64,000 nucleotides of DNA from positions 1 through 64,000 of the forward strand of contig NZ_AHCB03000010.1 of assembly GCF_000238335.3 (NCBI RefSeq). The letters run 5' to 3'. The position numbers and the translations under genes were made by a program. The stretch's first letter is position 1; the number at the start of each line of letters is the position of its first letter. The notes under the pieces were generated by a model that worked only from the letters and a program-made list of their open reading frames with translations, had not been told where the DNA came from and did not search any database. Positions 8,191-33,615 of the stretch are shown here, piece by piece. Source of the DNA: Pseudoalteromonas marina. Lineage in GTDB: Bacteria; Pseudomonadota; Gammaproteobacteria; Enterobacterales; Alteromonadaceae.

Positions 8191-9564
8191 CTACAAGCCA
8201 CCTTGTGTGAGCTTAGTCGGGTTGAGCAGTTTTTCGAGCTCTTCACGTGGTAAGTCAGTTTCTTGTTCGGCAACATCAATAATAGGACGGGCTTCTTTAT
8301 AGGCTTGCTTGGCTATTTGGGCTGCTTTTTCGTAACCGATCACCGGATTAAGTGCAGTCACTAAAATAGGGTTTTTGGCAAGAGCGCGGTCAATGTTAGC
8401 TTGATTTACGATAAATGTGGCTATGGCTTTTTCTGCCAAAGCTTTGGCGCTGTTTGTTAGTAGCTCAATGCTTTGCAAAATATTATATGCAATAACGGGC
8501 AGCATAACATTTAGTTCAAAGTTACCAGATTGACCAGCAACGGTAATTGTAGCGTCGTTACCAATCACTTGCGCACTAACCATCGCAGCGGCTTCTGGTA
8601 TGACTGGGTTTACTTTACCCGGCATAATAGATGAGCCAGGTTGTAGGGCTTCAAGTTCTATTTCGCCTAAACCTGCAAGAGGGCCTGAGTTCATCCAGCG
8701 TAAGTCGTTCGCTATTTTCATTTGTGCTACAGCGAGTACTTTTAATTGCCCAGACAGTGCAACAATGGCATCTTGTGAACCAATATTGTAAAAAAAGTTT
8801 TTGCTTGGCGAAAACCGGATCCCCACGTTTTTAGTTAGGTTAGTGCAAAATAAATCTGCAAACTTTGGGTCGGCATTAATACCGGTACCAACAGCTGTAC
8901 CACCTTGAGCAAGCTCACACACTGGCTCTAAGCTATGGCGAATGCCTGAGGCTGCGTTGTTTACTTGCGATTGCCATGCATTAAGGGTTTGCTCGAATGT
9001 AACAGGCATCGCGTCCATTAAGTGGGTGCGACCTGTTTTAACAATAGCGCCTACCTCGCTCTTTTTATTTTCTAAATGTTGCGAAAGGTTTTCAAGAGCT
9101 GGCAGTAATGCTTGTTTAACGGCTAATGCACTACTTAGTGCAATAGCCGTAGGGACTACATCGTTTGAGCTTTGGCCCATGTTTACATCATCATTAGGAT
9201 GTACAAGCTCCTGTTGAGTACTGGCAAGTGTTGCTATTACTTCATTGGCGTTCATATTAGAACTAGTTCCTGAACCGGTTTGAAACACATCAACAGGAAA
9301 CTGATCATGATGCTTACCATCAATAATCGCTTGGCAAGCACGCTCTATTGCAGTTGCCTTGGTTTTATTTATAAGCCCTAGCTCACAGTTACTTTGTGCT
9401 GCAGCTTGTTTTATATATGCCAGTGCCTTTATAAATTGTGCTGGCATAGTGAGGGCGCTAATAGCAAAGTTATTAACAGCGCGCTGTGTTTGTGCTTGAT
9501 ATAAAGCGTTAACAGGTACTTTTAATTCGCCCATACTGTCTGATTCTGTTCTAAAGTTACTCAT
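8191..9564 (-). CDS. fumC: Class II fumarate hydratase
   Basis: This is a 457-residue class II fumarase (E. coli FumC is 467), a cytosolic homotetramer that interconverts fumarate and malate without an iron-sulphur cluster. Seen motifs are TGSGTSSNMNANEVIA, the active-site His in GRTHLMDAMPVT, and the superfamily signature GSSIMPGKVNP with the catalytic Ser. An AAGGAG site precedes the start. It lies 11 bases after a small gene controlled by a Fur box, matching the iron-regulated fagA-fumC arrangement of pseudomonads. FumC replaces iron-dependent fumarases under iron limitation. The orfX and sodA genes found downstream in Pseudomonas are absent here. Confidence 0.97.
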   Translation of the reverse strand: MSNFRTESDSMGELKVPVNALYQAQTQRAVNNFAISALTMPAQFIKALAYIKQAAAQSNCELGLINKTKATAIERACQAIIDGKHHDQFPVDVFQTGSGTSSNMNANEVIATLASTQQELVHPNDDVNMGQSSNDVVPTAIALSSALAVKQALLPALENLSQHLENKKSEVGAIVKTGRTHLMDAMPVTFEQTLNAWQSQVNNAASGIRHSLEPVCELAQGGTAVGTGINADPKFADLFCTNLTKNVGIRFSPSKNFFYNIGSQDAIVALSGQLKVLAVAQMKIANDLRWMNSGPLAGLGEIELEALQPGSSIMPGKVNPVIPEAAAMVSAQVIGNDATITVAGQSGNFELNVMLPVIAYNILQSIELLTNSAKALAEKAIATFIVNQANIDRALAKNPILVTALNPVIGYEKAAQIAKQAYKEARPIIDVAEQETDLPREELEKLLNPTKLTQGGL

Positions 9565-9575
9565 TAATGTGCTCC

Positions 9576-9941
9576 TTAAAAAGGGTTGAATTCGTGACTA
9601 AGAATACGAGCTTCACGCTCAAGTAATAAAAATTTAGCACGACTATTGTGGCTTATGTAGAAACGCTTTAATGCAAGTAATGGTTTGTGTAGCTGGTGTA
9701 GGCATTGTTTGCGAATTGCATTATGAGTAAGAGGATCGCACATTTTATTTATAATTTCATGATGTGTGCGTCTAAGGTAATACTCCTGAAGTAGCGGGTT
9801 ATCAAGTTGTTCAAAGTTTTTAGCTACGTTGAGGGCTGCGTCTATATAATGAGCGACAAGCATTGGGGCATGCAGACCTGGCCTTTTGCAATTAAATGCA
9901 AGAGTATGTTGATAGTTATTTAAGGCGTGATTTGAAGACAT
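9576..9941 (-). CDS. FagA-like small protein of the Fur-controlled fumC operon
   Basis: This 121-residue soluble protein is rich in His, Leu, Arg and Tyr (LLQEYYLRRTHHEII, LHQLHKPLLALKRFY), with no signal peptide. It sits immediately upstream of fumC and just behind a near-ideal Fur box, the position of fagA (Fur-associated gene) in Pseudomonas aeruginosa. I call it FagA-like from position, size and the Leu/Tyr/His-rich character; I cannot align it. No clear ribosome site precedes the ATG at 9941, so the start is uncertain. Function of FagA is not known to me. Confidence 0.6.
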   Translation of the reverse strand: MSSNHALNNYQHTLAFNCKRPGLHAPMLVAHYIDAALNVAKNFEQLDNPLLQEYYLRRTHHEIINKMCDPLTHNAIRKQCLHQLHKPLLALKRFYISHNSRAKFLLLEREARILSHEFNPF

Positions 9942-9958
9942 AAAAAAACCGACTCAAC

Positions 9959-9979
9959 TAATGATAATAGTTATCATTA
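9959..9979. promoter_or_regulatory. Fur box upstream of the fagA-like/fumC operon
   Basis: TAATGATAA, a 3-base spacer, then TTATCATTA forms a perfect 9+3+9 inverted repeat that fits the Fur consensus. On the minus strand it contains a TATTAT -10-like hexamer, so iron-loaded Fur would cover the promoter and repress the operon. It lies 18 bases from the first start codon. A longer inverted repeat (AAACCGA/TCGGTTT) frames it. Confidence 0.88.
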
Positions 9980-10035
9980 CATTTAATCGGTTTCAGTGTA
10001 AATAGTTATTATAAAAATTATTTACGGCGTGTATT

Positions 10036-29316: not shown

Positions 29317-30261
29317 ATGGCTATCCAGTGGTTCCCTGGGCACATGAATAAAGCCCGAAATGAAATTAAAGAAATAATGCCACAAATGGATGTGATCATT
29401 GAAGTGCTTGACGCACGCATTCCTTATAGTAGCGAAAATCCAATGGTGACAACCCTTCGTGAAGGCAAACCGGTCATCAAAATTTTAAATAAGGCTGATT
29501 TAGCTGATCCTAAAATGACTCAAGTATGGAAAGACTACTTTGAGCAAGAAAGTGGTGTTAAAGCCATTGCGTTTGGTCATGATAAGGCCGCTGAAGTACA
29601 CCGTATTAATGAGCTTTGTAAAAAGTTAGTGCCGCATAAAGTGGGTGCCGATAAGCAAATAAAAGCCATGATCATGGGTATTCCAAACGTGGGTAAATCT
29701 ACATTAATTAATGTATTAGCTGGTCGTATAGTGGCAAAAACGGGTAATGAACCTGCGGTTACCAAGGCGCAGCAGCGCATTAAGCTTGAAGACGGCATTA
29801 TGCTATACGATACGCCAGGCATGCTTTGGCCAAAAGTAGAGAACGAGAATTCAGGTTATCGTTTAGGTGCAACGGGTGCAATACGCGACACTGCACTTGA
29901 GTACGAAGAAGTTGCTAGTTACACCGCTGAATATCTACTGCATGCTTATCCTGAACTACTAAAAGCGCGCTATAAGTTAAACGAATTGCCAGAAAGCGAT
30001 TGGGAATTTGTGGAAATGGCGGGTAAAAAGCGTGGTTGTATTCGTGGTGGTAATCAAATAGACACGTATAAAATGTCTGAAATACTCATTAACGAACTTC
30101 GAGATGGCATTATTGGTCGCATTACCATGGAAACACCAGCCATGCGTGAAGAAGAAGAAATAATGGTTGCCGGATTACGCGCCGCTGCAGAAGCTAAAAA
30201 AGCAGCTAAAGAAGAAGAGAAAAAACAGCGCCGTGCACGTGCACGAAAAAACCGCCGTTAA
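29317..30261 (+). CDS. rbgA: Ribosome biogenesis GTPase YlqF/RbgA
   Basis: This is a 314-residue circularly permuted GTPase. The G4 motif NKAD comes first (after VIKIL), then G1 IPNVGKSTLINVL, and G3 DTPGMLWP. The opening AIQWFPGHMNKARNEI is typical of YlqF/RbgA, which acts in late assembly of the 50S subunit. The C terminus is a basic tail (EEEKKQRRARARKNRR). A terminator follows at 30304. Confidence 0.94.
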   Translation: MAIQWFPGHMNKARNEIKEIMPQMDVIIEVLDARIPYSSENPMVTTLREGKPVIKILNKADLADPKMTQVWKDYFEQESGVKAIAFGHDKAAEVHRINELCKKLVPHKVGADKQIKAMIMGIPNVGKSTLINVLAGRIVAKTGNEPAVTKAQQRIKLEDGIMLYDTPGMLWPKVENENSGYRLGATGAIRDTALEYEEVASYTAEYLLHAYPELLKARYKLNELPESDWEFVEMAGKKRGCIRGGNQIDTYKMSEILINELRDGIIGRITMETPAMREEEEIMVAGLRAAAEAKKAAKEEEKKQRRARARKNRR

Positions 30262-30303
30262 ATTGTGAGCTTATGTGAGTATGTTGCTCACTAAATTTCA
30301 GAC

Positions 30304-30331
30304 ATAAAAAAAGCCCGTAAGGGCTTTTTTA
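30304..30331. terminator. Bidirectional terminator shared by rbgA and the RyhB-like RNA
   Basis: AAAAAAGCCC and GGGCTTTTTT form the stem around GTAA. T runs exist on both strands, so it can end rbgA (rightward) and the sRNA (leftward). Confidence 0.9.
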
Positions 30332-30522
30332 GTTTCATATCTACCGTCACCGATATGAGCAATGTAGCAAGTAAAATAGTAGGGCGGTTACTTATCATCA
30401 ACATCAAGGGGCGTTGCGGTTAATAACAAGTAACCATAGCTGTTAACGTGCGCCACACGTTGTTTCAGGGTCGAGAAACAAGTTATTCATTCCGTTACAA
30501 AGCTGTATGTTCTGCCTTGTTG
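30304..30522 (-). ncRNA. ryhB: RyhB-type iron-responsive small RNA
   Basis: No protein gene lies here, yet a well-formed promoter (TTGACA, 17 bases, GATAAT) framed by two Fur boxes points leftward from 30522-30585. The transcript would run about 218 nt to the rho-independent terminator at 30304-30331. About 40 nt before its terminator hairpin it contains ACATTGCTCATAT (30353-30365 on the minus strand), which matches the conserved pairing core of E. coli RyhB (ACATTGCTCACAT) at 12 of 13 positions. A length near 220 nt is like the long RyhB of vibrios. RyhB acts with Hfq to silence mRNAs of iron-using proteins when Fur is inactive. What is seen is the core, promoter, Fur sites and terminator; the activity is inferred. 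Confidence 0.82.
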
Positions 30523-30585
30523 ATAGTGATTATCAATTAGATCTAAGTATCTGTCAACACTCAAATGCAAATAATTATCATTATC
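30522..30585 (-). promoter_or_regulatory. Fur-controlled promoter of the RyhB-like RNA
   Basis: On the minus strand GATAATGATAATTATTTGC (30567-30585) matches the 19-base Fur consensus at 16 positions. A second, weaker site covers 30522-30540 (13 of 19 on the plus strand). Between and overlapping them lie TTGACA (30552-30557) and GATAAT (30529-30534), exactly 17 bases apart. Fur-Fe would cover both ends of the promoter. The start of transcription should be near 30522. Confidence 0.85.
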
Positions 30586-30636
30586 TTGGTGCGCGTTTTT
30601 TATTCTCTTTTAAATCGGTATGTTAGCGTTAAATAA

Positions 30637-33615
30637 CTACTCTTTTTTATTTTCACTTAAGCGTAAATTTATTTTATCAACTAGCACTTCATCGAGCTTA
30701 TTAAACCTGCTAACAATAAGTAAAAAATCACTTCCATCTGTTTTTATTACTTTAATAGTGGTGTTATCTAGTTCAGTTTTACCGTATGAGGTTTCTATTT
30801 TATCAATGTCATTAAAGTGACTAAGGTCTGAGTCAAGCTTTCCAGCATCGTTTTTATAGTAGCTAAAAATATAATTATCAGTTATTCCGTTTCCATCGTC
30901 TCGATAGTCAAACATGGCATCACTATAAAAATAGAGAACGTCTTCATTTTCTGGTGTTAGGCGGTTACGTTTTAAAAAGTGAGTTTGATAAGCCCATAAC
31001 TTTTCGCCTTTTATTATAGCGCTACCAGGTAAAATATTAGCTTCTTGAAGTACACCGAAGAGTAATATTGGCGAAAGCGCCAGAGACATAAAGCACTGTC
31101 TGACTCGCCAGTAAGAATTGTAATGCAAAGCTTTTTGGTTGGTGTTTGCGTGCTCTATGTAACTCACTAATGGAAGCCATAGAAAAGGCATAACCAGCAA
31201 TGCGATAGTGGCGTATTCTTCCATGCGGTAAACCAATGTGGTTGCAAGTACTAATAAAAATAAAACAGCAGCCCCCCAGCTTGGGATTATTTTACTTTTA
31301 CTTGATTGCAATTCACTGTGTTGCTTCAGTGCTTGATAAAGGGGGTAATACCATAAAATGGCGAAAATACCGCGAGCAATAGGCATTATATTGGCATTGC
31401 TGTGCTGCTTTATAGCTTTAAAGTTACGGTAGCACCAATAGTTAATATAAATACCTAAGCTTAAAATGCTGTAAATAATAAACTTGCTGACCGATACAGC
31501 GTAAAATGGGGTATTTTCAAAAGTAGGGCGCTTTGCCGACTCGAGTCGCCAGTCTGCAATAAAGAAAATAAATAATAAAAGGTAACCGGCAAGTGCGTAT
31601 TTAAGCCAGTTACCTCCAAGGTTATCGAGTATGTCGGCCGTTGTTTGAGGCGCCTCAGTTGTGTTTGCGTACTTTAAAATTGAGTAGTGCGTGGCTGAAA
31701 TAAGTTTGTTTCGTTGCGCTAGGTAGTCGCTGATTTTATCAGCGGGAATATGGTCTTTCTTTGCGTAAAAGTGATAGCTCAGCGTTAAAATATTATCATT
31801 AAAGCTAACGGATGTTTTTAAATAAAAGTAGTCGTTATCAATCTCGTCTTGGCTATTGTCAAACGCCCAGTTTTTTTCAGTAAAATGAAGTTTTATGCTG
31901 GTGTCAATTATATTGGGGTATTCAAAATAAAGTGGGTCTGTGCGATTAGTTTGCTTTGGCTCGTAAACACTGTTTTGTATTTCAGAGGCGTAAAAATCAG
32001 CTTCATATCCGTCACTGGTTTTTTCCCAAAATTGGCTAATAAGGTACGACTCGCTAGTGATAAACTGACCTGTTTGTTGGTCCTCACTTACCGCCATGGG
32101 TTTATCGATTTTGAGCTCGTCAAAAAAACCTTGGTAGTATTCAAGGTATGATTTTGCAACGCTGTCTAGCCCGTTGCGCGCTAAATTACTTCTGCGATTA
32201 ATAGCCTGAAACTCGGCATAAGAATATTCGGTAGTAAATAGGACCGGTTCTTTTACTGTTTTAGGAATATAAAATTGATCGTTTACTGTTACCTTTTTAT
32301 GCACAGGAGTTTGTGCCATAGGCGTTAATGTATTTTCGCCATTTTTTATAATAAGTGCATATCCGTAATCGGGCTGCGCTAAATAGGGAAGTGTACCTCG
32401 TTGATAACTAATGGTTGGATCCAGCCAATAGCGTTTGCCTTTGTACTCAAGAGTTACAATTACGTGGTTAAATACGCTTGCTGTGGCCGGTAGTTCTATT
32501 AAGCGCTTCGTTTCTTCTGTATCTACAAGAGCAGGGTATGCCTCTATTTTCATCGCTTTTAATAATGAAATGAGTAGAGTTGTTTTATCTTTACAGTCAC
32601 CATACCGTAGAGATAGCGTTTCTGAGGCAGGTGTTGGCTGATGAGAATTGGTGCCCATTTCTAAACCTAAATAGCGTATTTCGTCTTGGCTAAAGCGTAA
32701 TGCTGCGGCAATCCTATCGGCTGTATTGGTATGTTGTGCCTGTATAGATTGCGCTATGGCGTTAATACTACTGGGTGTTTCGATTGCTGACTCATAAAGT
32801 GGTAATGCCCAATTAACAACTTCGTCCCAACTATTATATTCAGAGAGATAAACTTGCATGTATGGGTTGTACCAGGTGGGTGTTTCAGAGTCTTGCGTGA
32901 GTAAAGGGGCTTCGAACTCTGATATAGAGTAGTCCGTACCGTATTGGTTTTCAGTCTGTTTTGTTTCGGCAGTGCCATTTATGGTTTTTATATTAAGAGG
33001 TGTTTTTTTACCCCATAAAACACGCATATACTGTTGCACTACGGGCACTGACCACCTTAGTGTGCGCCGAGTACTAAATTTATTGGCATAGATAGGATTA
33101 CTGCCGGTAACACTGTAGCTATAATCGAGCATATCTCCGCTTCGCATATCGTCAACAATGATATTTAAAGAAAGCCTTCCGTTATAAATTTTATCAGCTA
33201 ATTCAGGCTCGCTCTGGATAACAGATAACCTTGCAGTTGAAAGCTTATCTATGTGCTTACCATCTCTAATTATGGAGAGTGTGTGCAATGTTAGGGTCTG
33301 ATAGCTTGGGTCAAAATCGAGGCTTAACTGGCTTATATAGTCAACGCCACTTTGATTAAGTGCTTGCATTACTAGGCGTGTGTATCGTTGTTGCTTTTGA
33401 CGTTCAGGAACATAAGTTTGGTTGTCGAGTAATAGGTATAGTGTGCCATCGCGCACTTTTGCCATATCACTTTTTTGGGGCTGTTTTACGTCATGTAGGG
33501 TGACCCAATTACCAGGTGCATCTATTTTATATTGCGTAGCATAAGCTGGTGCATTACATAGAAATAAAACACATGTTAGTAGCCAATAAATAGGGTAAAG
33601 AAATGTCCGTTTCAT
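30637..33615 (-). CDS. DUF3857/transglutaminase-like membrane protein
   Basis: This is a 992-residue exported protein with a signal peptide (cleavage near PAYA-T, residue 27). Residues about 50-270 are a DUF3857 domain (YSVTGSNPIYANKFSTRRTL). About 275-420 is a transglutaminase-like fold with Cys in RYGDCKDKTTLL, His in VFNHVIVTL and Asp in YWLDPT, so the triad is intact. After a beta-rich part come several membrane helices (about 670-870) and a short C-terminal domain. The family is widespread in marine bacteria with unknown substrate; papain-like peptide chemistry in the periplasm is likely. It stands alone, with the RyhB-like RNA locus just downstream. Confidence 0.82.
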   Translation of the reverse strand: MKRTFLYPIYWLLTCVLFLCNAPAYATQYKIDAPGNWVTLHDVKQPQKSDMAKVRDGTLYLLLDNQTYVPERQKQQRYTRLVMQALNQSGVDYISQLSLDFDPSYQTLTLHTLSIIRDGKHIDKLSTARLSVIQSEPELADKIYNGRLSLNIIVDDMRSGDMLDYSYSVTGSNPIYANKFSTRRTLRWSVPVVQQYMRVLWGKKTPLNIKTINGTAETKQTENQYGTDYSISEFEAPLLTQDSETPTWYNPYMQVYLSEYNSWDEVVNWALPLYESAIETPSSINAIAQSIQAQHTNTADRIAAALRFSQDEIRYLGLEMGTNSHQPTPASETLSLRYGDCKDKTTLLISLLKAMKIEAYPALVDTEETKRLIELPATASVFNHVIVTLEYKGKRYWLDPTISYQRGTLPYLAQPDYGYALIIKNGENTLTPMAQTPVHKKVTVNDQFYIPKTVKEPVLFTTEYSYAEFQAINRRSNLARNGLDSVAKSYLEYYQGFFDELKIDKPMAVSEDQQTGQFITSESYLISQFWEKTSDGYEADFYASEIQNSVYEPKQTNRTDPLYFEYPNIIDTSIKLHFTEKNWAFDNSQDEIDNDYFYLKTSVSFNDNILTLSYHFYAKKDHIPADKISDYLAQRNKLISATHYSILKYANTTEAPQTTADILDNLGGNWLKYALAGYLLLFIFFIADWRLESAKRPTFENTPFYAVSVSKFIIYSILSLGIYINYWCYRNFKAIKQHSNANIMPIARGIFAILWYYPLYQALKQHSELQSSKSKIIPSWGAAVLFLLVLATTLVYRMEEYATIALLVMPFLWLPLVSYIEHANTNQKALHYNSYWRVRQCFMSLALSPILLFGVLQEANILPGSAIIKGEKLWAYQTHFLKRNRLTPENEDVLYFYSDAMFDYRDDGNGITDNYIFSYYKNDAGKLDSDLSHFNDIDKIETSYGKTELDNTTIKVIKTDGSDFLLIVSRFNKLDEVLVDKINLRLSENKKE

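Follow-up and report, generated by a model that had tools for sequence, protein, structure and literature searches.

The question raised by this locus is whether a gap between two convergent genes encodes a small RNA (sRNA), and whether that RNA belongs to the RyhB family, as a sequence-only reading had proposed. The window analyzed here is the whole 64,000-nt stretch of DNA, and its host is Pseudoalteromonas, as the best 62 rbgA relatives all come from this genus, with 80-99% identity. On one side of the gap lies a gene with GTPase domains, which we take to be rbgA (29317-30261, + strand), and on the other its convergent neighbor, a DUF3857/transglutaminase-like gene (30637-33615, - strand). 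Between them, computation finds a conserved gene with a promoter and Fur boxes, whose seeds have constrained target sites. No ORF of 40 aa or more is present in 30262-30619, and a promoter, Fur boxes, a terminator, and a RyhB-core match are all there, which bears out both the ORF-free gap and the sRNA gene of the sequence-only reading. A promoter scan of the minus strand finds the -35 hexamer TTGACA (30552-30557) and the -10 hexamer GATAAT (30529-30534) 17 bases apart, as had been stated; together they form a sigma70 promoter with 11 of 12 consensus bases, and TTGAC is kept in 126-127 of 128 aligned copies of the sRNA (two others, L043_1 and L064_1, were dropped from the alignment). The transcript is predicted to start at about 30522 and end at 30304 on the minus strand, giving a length of about 217 nt (217-219 nt), close to the earlier estimate of about 218 nt, and the 217-nt form folds better than all of 200 shuffled sequences (z -4.6). 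It would end at a rho-independent terminator, AAAAAAGCCC-UUAC-GGGCUUUUUUU (30304-30330, - strand), probably common to rbgA on the other strand. A simple terminator scan listed this hairpin on the plus strand only; because A and T runs flank it on both sides, it would serve both directions. From the promoter, terminator, fold, and conservation, we infer that the transcript is an sRNA.

Two Fur boxes frame the promoter, again as the sequence-only reading had it (16/19 and 13/19). Fur box 1 (30567-30585, - strand) matches GATAATGATAATCATTATC at 16 of 19 positions and is the best Fur match of the whole window. Fur box 2 (30522-30540, - strand), a 14/19 match additional to those claimed, overlaps the -10 hexamer and the start site, and the 13/19 match lies at 30516-30534, overlapping it. 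Averaged over the 128 aligned copies, the best match to the Fur box is 13.8/19, compared with 11.1 in shuffled sequences, and 127 copies have a match of at least 13/19. These matches point to repression of the sRNA gene by Fur, a feature of RyhB genes.

The gene is a property of the genus. As a DNA query, 30300-30600 has matches in 107 of 108 Pseudoalteromonas genomes, and the same number was matched by R1, a covariance model of the 3' part of the sRNA built from 28 copies, with one to five detected copies in each genome. Under strict filters, by which weak matches are lost, R1 matched 12 of 246 genomes in a family sample, all Pseudoalteromonas and none of the 234 from other genera, and 4 of 394 in an order sample, again all Pseudoalteromonas. 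The exception in both genus searches is genome G096, where an assembly gap is possible; this genome still has the sodB and fumA sites described below (L218 and L302).

The copies are frequently arranged in tandem. Full flanks were available at 57 of 66 Pseudoalteromonas rbgA loci, which hold at least one (16 loci), two (19), three (20), or four (2) copies, counts that are lower bounds because the flank is 3 kb; seven weak terminator-sized matches in six Psychrobacter loci were left out of them. Four rbgA loci have no copy, and all four end at a contig end at most 0.9 kb from the rbgA match. The source genome holds a single copy. Copies also occur away from rbgA: 7 of the 12 genus members in the family sample have one on another contig, and each of three two-contig genomes (G023, G031, and G082) has one on the contig other than that of the rbgA locus. 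We read 16 further copies, seven from family-sample loci (L195, L196, L197, L200, L201, L202, and L204) and nine others (L403-L411). They keep the 3' module and have different 5' halves, and in 15 of the 16 a promoter is recognized, together with a Fur-like site that scores 13-16/19 before any shuffle control. The remaining copy, L197, has a Fur match of 11/19 and no promoter match, and L202 carries AGACGGU in place of UGACGGU. The copies at L200 and L204 both adjoin a gene for a Sel1-like repeat protein, named by eye at these two loci.

Tandem copies of a transcript convergent to rbgA would also be expected if this were an antisense RNA or a decayed repeat instead of a trans-acting sRNA, in which case its conservation would be that of repeated DNA, for example of a mobile element. 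We regard this as very improbable, because all matches at Pseudoalteromonas rbgA loci lie downstream of rbgA on the opposite strand and the transcript does not overlap the rbgA coding sequence, promoter, Fur-like site, and terminator recur in every one of the eight units of the two four-copy arrays that were read from end to end, and conservation is strongest in the seeds, hairpins, and promoter.

Within the RNA, conservation is concentrated in a 3' module. The block CUUGCUACAUUGCUCAUAUC (DNA form CTTGCTACATTGCTCATATC), which includes the RyhB-like core, is kept in all 128 aligned copies, while much of the remaining RNA drifts; drift of the core, which the sequence-only reading had named as grounds for rejecting its claim, is thus not seen. 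Equally invariant (128/128) is UGACGGU (DNA TGACGGT; 30343-30349, - strand), located in the 10-nt loop on top of a 7-bp stem, UCAUAUC-GGUGACGGUA-GAUAUGA (30335-30358, - strand), with a mean unpaired probability of 0.90. This loop seed is the strongest pairing element; it lies outside the RyhB core and was absent from the sequence-only reading. A linear seed, ACUUGCUACAUUGC (30359-30372, - strand), is partly paired, with a mean unpaired probability of 0.55. Covariation in the loop-seed hairpin is limited to one C-G to U-A change, in the paralogue L196, and is not significant (one of seven pairs changed on both sides, equaled in 218 of 500 shuffles). Folding of each copy reveals a further hairpin with a variable stem and the apical loop CGCCCC (30386-30435, - strand). 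The motif CGCCCCT (RNA CGCCCCU) occurs in 117 of 128 copies with 70 distinct flanks, lies in the apical loop in 113 of the 117, and is missing in 11 copies. RNAalifold missed this hairpin in a 253-column alignment of 38 of the 128 copies because the stems misalign.

Is this RNA, then, a RyhB? The claimed 12/13 match to the RyhB pairing core is real: ACATTGCTCATAT (30353-30365, - strand) against RyhB ACATTGCTCACAT. It is unique in the window when both strands are searched, and by our own estimate a match this good would turn up by chance in a single-strand stretch of 217 nt with a probability of about 1e-4. Its distance from the terminator had been misjudged; roughly 22 nt, rather than about 40 nt, separate the end of the core from the terminator stem. 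The predicted length of 217-219 nt was rightly compared with vibrio RyhB, which measures 215 nt in V. cholerae according to PMC2964681. The Rfam search that had been suggested as a check came out negative: the RyhB family RF00057 has no match in this gap even at E values up to 10, and none anywhere in the genome at E 0.001. No RyhB reached the gathering score either. Among 14 aligned RyhB rows from seven families, GACATTGCTCACA..T is almost invariant, with one inserted T in five rows. Where RyhB of these families has GACATTGCTCACA followed by TTGCT, only ACATTGCTCA and the next AT match in the Pseudoalteromonas sRNA; the residues around the shared ten, invariant in the 14 rows, are changed, and the RNA lacks the core's second half, CATTGCTTCC. 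The genomic setting differs as well. In genomes that we take to be vibrios and Shewanella, RyhB adjoins a gene named polA by eye, whereas the sRNA locus is not upstream of polA, and neither rbgA nor the DUF3857 gene is found at any of the 11 RyhB loci checked. In a survey with RF00057, none of the 109 matching genomes belongs to the host family, from whose host genus two members (G000 and G012) were tested, and R1 scores RyhB loci at chance level only.

These results bear on two accounts of descent. In the first, the sRNA is a genuine orthologue of RyhB that changed both place and sequence, inheriting the ACATTGCTCA core while the rest was rebuilt; this would alter its history and leave its function the same. 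The unique core match, the shared succession of Fur box, core, and terminator, and the variation of RyhB itself among families all speak for it, and they have to be set against the missing RF00057 match, the changed residues around the shared ten together with the lost CATTGCTTCC half, the chance-level scores of R1 at RyhB loci, and the different neighbor genes. We therefore hold orthology to be possible but somewhat doubtful. In the second account, to which we give about an even chance, RyhB was lost in Pseudoalteromonas (a loss judged with RF00057 in genomes G000 and G012), and an iron-sparing sRNA that took shape independently, with one linear seed and two seeds shown in loops, was amplified in tandem and elsewhere, while its targets changed to fit, the sodB site being made by an Ala-to-Ser codon change. 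Because little beyond ACATTGCTCA is shared, Rfam gives no match, and R1 misses RyhB, we file the sRNA as a probable functional counterpart, and only possibly a descendant, of RyhB. Of the proposed RyhB-type sRNA, what stands is a probably Fur-controlled sRNA with RyhB-type function, judged by its predicted targets sdhC, sodB, and class I fumarase; membership in the RyhB family is not supported.

The predicted targets come from a rank test on 1108 gene starts. A simple script called these starts in the window and in 1.2 Mb of contig C4, which together make up about 30% of the genome. The genes sodB and sdhC were chosen beforehand as RyhB targets, and fumA and nirB emerged from the screen; of the genes in the loop-seed ranking, sodB and fumA were identified by Pfam and the others were named by eye from the protein. 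With the loop seed, fumA ranks first (-20.0), sodB second (-19.0), and nirB fifth, with flagellar and pilus-like genes third and fourth. With the linear seed, sdhC ranks first (-21.5) and a DUF350 gene second (-21.3 kcal/mol), and the other top matches are not obviously iron genes. Of 45 loop-seed shuffles, none places either sodB or fumA within the first two ranks. Among 45 linear-seed shuffles sdhC is never first and is in the top 10 in two and in the top 50 in five, the last figure being about twice the expectation. The loop seed would pair with sodB codons 5-7 and their neighbors, and the linear part with the region just before the sdhC start. Complementarity to sodB, expected of a RyhB, is thus found in the UGACGGU loop, an element other than the core. 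Fur-regulated iron-sparing sRNAs, as a functional class, pair near the starts of messages for iron proteins that the cell can do without, and by computation this RNA is predicted to do the same.

The complement of the loop, ACCGTCA, occurs at -80 to +24 in 5 of the 1108 genes: nirB, fumA, a pyruvate-kinase-like gene, an unknown gene, and sodB. In the nirB-like gene (nitrite reductase, by eye; G000 C4:1194096, - strand), ACCGTCAC lies at about -23. The DUF350 gene (1884-2783 of the window, + strand) has its linear-seed match at -43. A dps gene in the window, sixth with the linear seed, was rejected as a target, its match being kept only in close relatives among 26 loci, and five second SOD genes (L230-L234) have no common site. 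A pattern search with 16 nt of the linear seed gave 57 matches, compared with 24 for the reversed pattern, and gene starts were not prominent in the 30 loci inspected. We also calculated pairing energies for a 51-nt block with 40 dinucleotide shuffles per target at 19 of 25 sodB and 12 of 17 sdhC loci. The energies exceed those of shuffled targets modestly, with z from -0.6 to -3.3 over the 31 targets, and in 8 of 31 the best duplex is elsewhere in the leader (sodB L221, L226, and L228; sdhC L235, L243, L248, L250, and L251), and for these reasons we rely on the rank test.

The target sites themselves show constraint. The sodB genes of 25 Pseudoalteromonas genomes have 124 amino-acid-invariant degenerate codons, only 10 of which are also codon-invariant; four of these ten are the consecutive codons 4-7, GAA-CTA-CCG-TCA, and the last three, CTA-CCG-TCA, frozen in 25 of 25 genomes, are the complement of the loop. 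Among the 69 codons with at least fourfold degeneracy only five are frozen, and three of them fall within codons 4-7. As a control, 37 genomes of other genera in the family returned 28 sodB loci, of which 25 were readable (L387, L398, and L402 were left unread), and CTACCGTCA occurs in none of the 25. At the position of the Ser-TCA codon these genera have Ala in 23 cases and Pro in 2, a difference that may reflect a single ancestral event. All 25 fumA leaders contain CGTCA, and 20 contain the full ACCGTCA, the motif lying near -60, near -29, or at -6; ACCGTCA ties with the Shine-Dalgarno-like AGGAACC as the commonest heptamer. About 8% of such leaders would be expected to contain CGTCA alone, the part found in the five leaders without the full heptamer, and because the leaders are related the 25 do not count as independent cases. 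Since the motif is kept at shifting positions, the pattern suggests turnover of the site with retention. At sdhC, GGGCAAGTAAC adjoins the start in 17 of 17 genes, and part of this conservation may serve the translation start.

It could be argued that the sRNA is conserved for other main targets and that its matches to sodB, fumA, and sdhC are secondary or due to chance. The C-rich loop, kept in 117 of 128 copies, gave no convincing target, and four of the seven top loop-seed matches are not obvious iron genes, as this reading would predict. It leaves unexplained the top ranks of fumA, sodB, and sdhC among 1108 starts, the frozen sodB codons, and the fumA motif held at shifting positions, and we judge it improbable. 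Rank and site conservation together support the predicted interactions between UGACGGU and the sodB and fumA mRNAs and between ACUUGC..UUGCUCA and the sdhC mRNA.

We consider it very likely, from the sequence evidence as a whole, that the gap encodes a Fur-repressed, trans-acting, iron-sparing sRNA that would be RyhB-like in action with changed seeds. When iron is scarce, Fur would leave both boxes and the RNA would be made; its conserved 3' module would then pair with messages for iron enzymes that the cell can do without. The hairpin loop UGACGGU would target codons 5-7 of sodB and the leader of the class I fumarase gene fumA, and the linear stretch ACUUGC...UUGCUCA would target the region around the sdhC start. 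Such pairing would block translation or expose the mRNA to decay, and iron would be spared. Iron-dependent expression, help from Hfq, repression of the targets, and any role of the C-rich loop are all parts that we infer; a motif scan of the third of the genome that was read did not find hfq. The window also contains the second Fur locus that had been pointed out, in which a fumC-like gene (8191-9564, - strand) and, upstream of it, a 121-aa ORF (9576-9941, - strand), presumably FagA, both named from their protein sequences, stand behind a Fur-like site of two overlapping 15/19 matches (9957-9981, - strand). This gene may well encode the iron-free fumarase that would stand in when fumA is repressed as predicted: with fumC behind a Fur-like site and the Fe-S enzyme gene fumA carrying a predicted sRNA site, an enzyme swap is plausible. 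The source genome has one Sod_Fe_N match (Pfam), and therefore a swap to MnSOD is not evident in it.

Among the papers listed in literature searches on RyhB with Shewanella, Pseudoalteromonas, or Alteromonadales and on sRNAs of Pseudoalteromonas or haloplanktis (main texts of mostly non-subscription papers), we found no description of this RNA, nor of any iron-sparing sRNA for Pseudoalteromonas, a marine genus. In the portions available, PMC9927453, PMC11882849, PMC11277574, and PMC12096840 deal with Csr sRNAs or are general reviews, and PMC2964681 and PMC5826389 deal with Shewanella RyhB. The sRNA offers an example of how a regulon (sodB, fumarase, and sdh) could be kept while the pairing code changes, and since 107 genomes are each known to carry between one and five copies, it can be tested directly how seeds, copy number, and target sites have evolved together.

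Among the known systems close to it is RyhB (RF00057) of enterobacteria, Vibrio, and Shewanella: the Pseudoalteromonas sRNA shares with it the Fur-repressed type of gene, a rho-independent terminator, the ACATTGCTCA stretch, and, by prediction, the targets sodB, sdhC, and fumarase. It differs in having no Rfam match, half a core, its main seed in a loop, another genomic site, and an extra hairpin with a C-rich loop. Side-by-side copies have a precedent in the tandem sRNAs of Pseudomonas aeruginosa, presumably PrrF. According to PMC2964681, tandem ryhB in Shewanella amazonensis has been likened to the tandem arrangement of P. aeruginosa, and RyhB of S. oneidensis is reported not to control TCA genes. 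The likeness to both tandems lies in Fur-linked sRNA copies standing side by side, whereas Pseudoalteromonas has one to four units at a single locus across the genus, further copies on other contigs, and another sequence; tandem copies are thus a known theme, and its extent is larger in Pseudoalteromonas. FsrA of Bacillus and IsrR of Staphylococcus, which carry C-rich motifs, come from distant hosts and have no known sequence relation to the sRNA; what they have in common with it, here as a prediction, is iron-sparing by mRNA pairing and C-rich loops.
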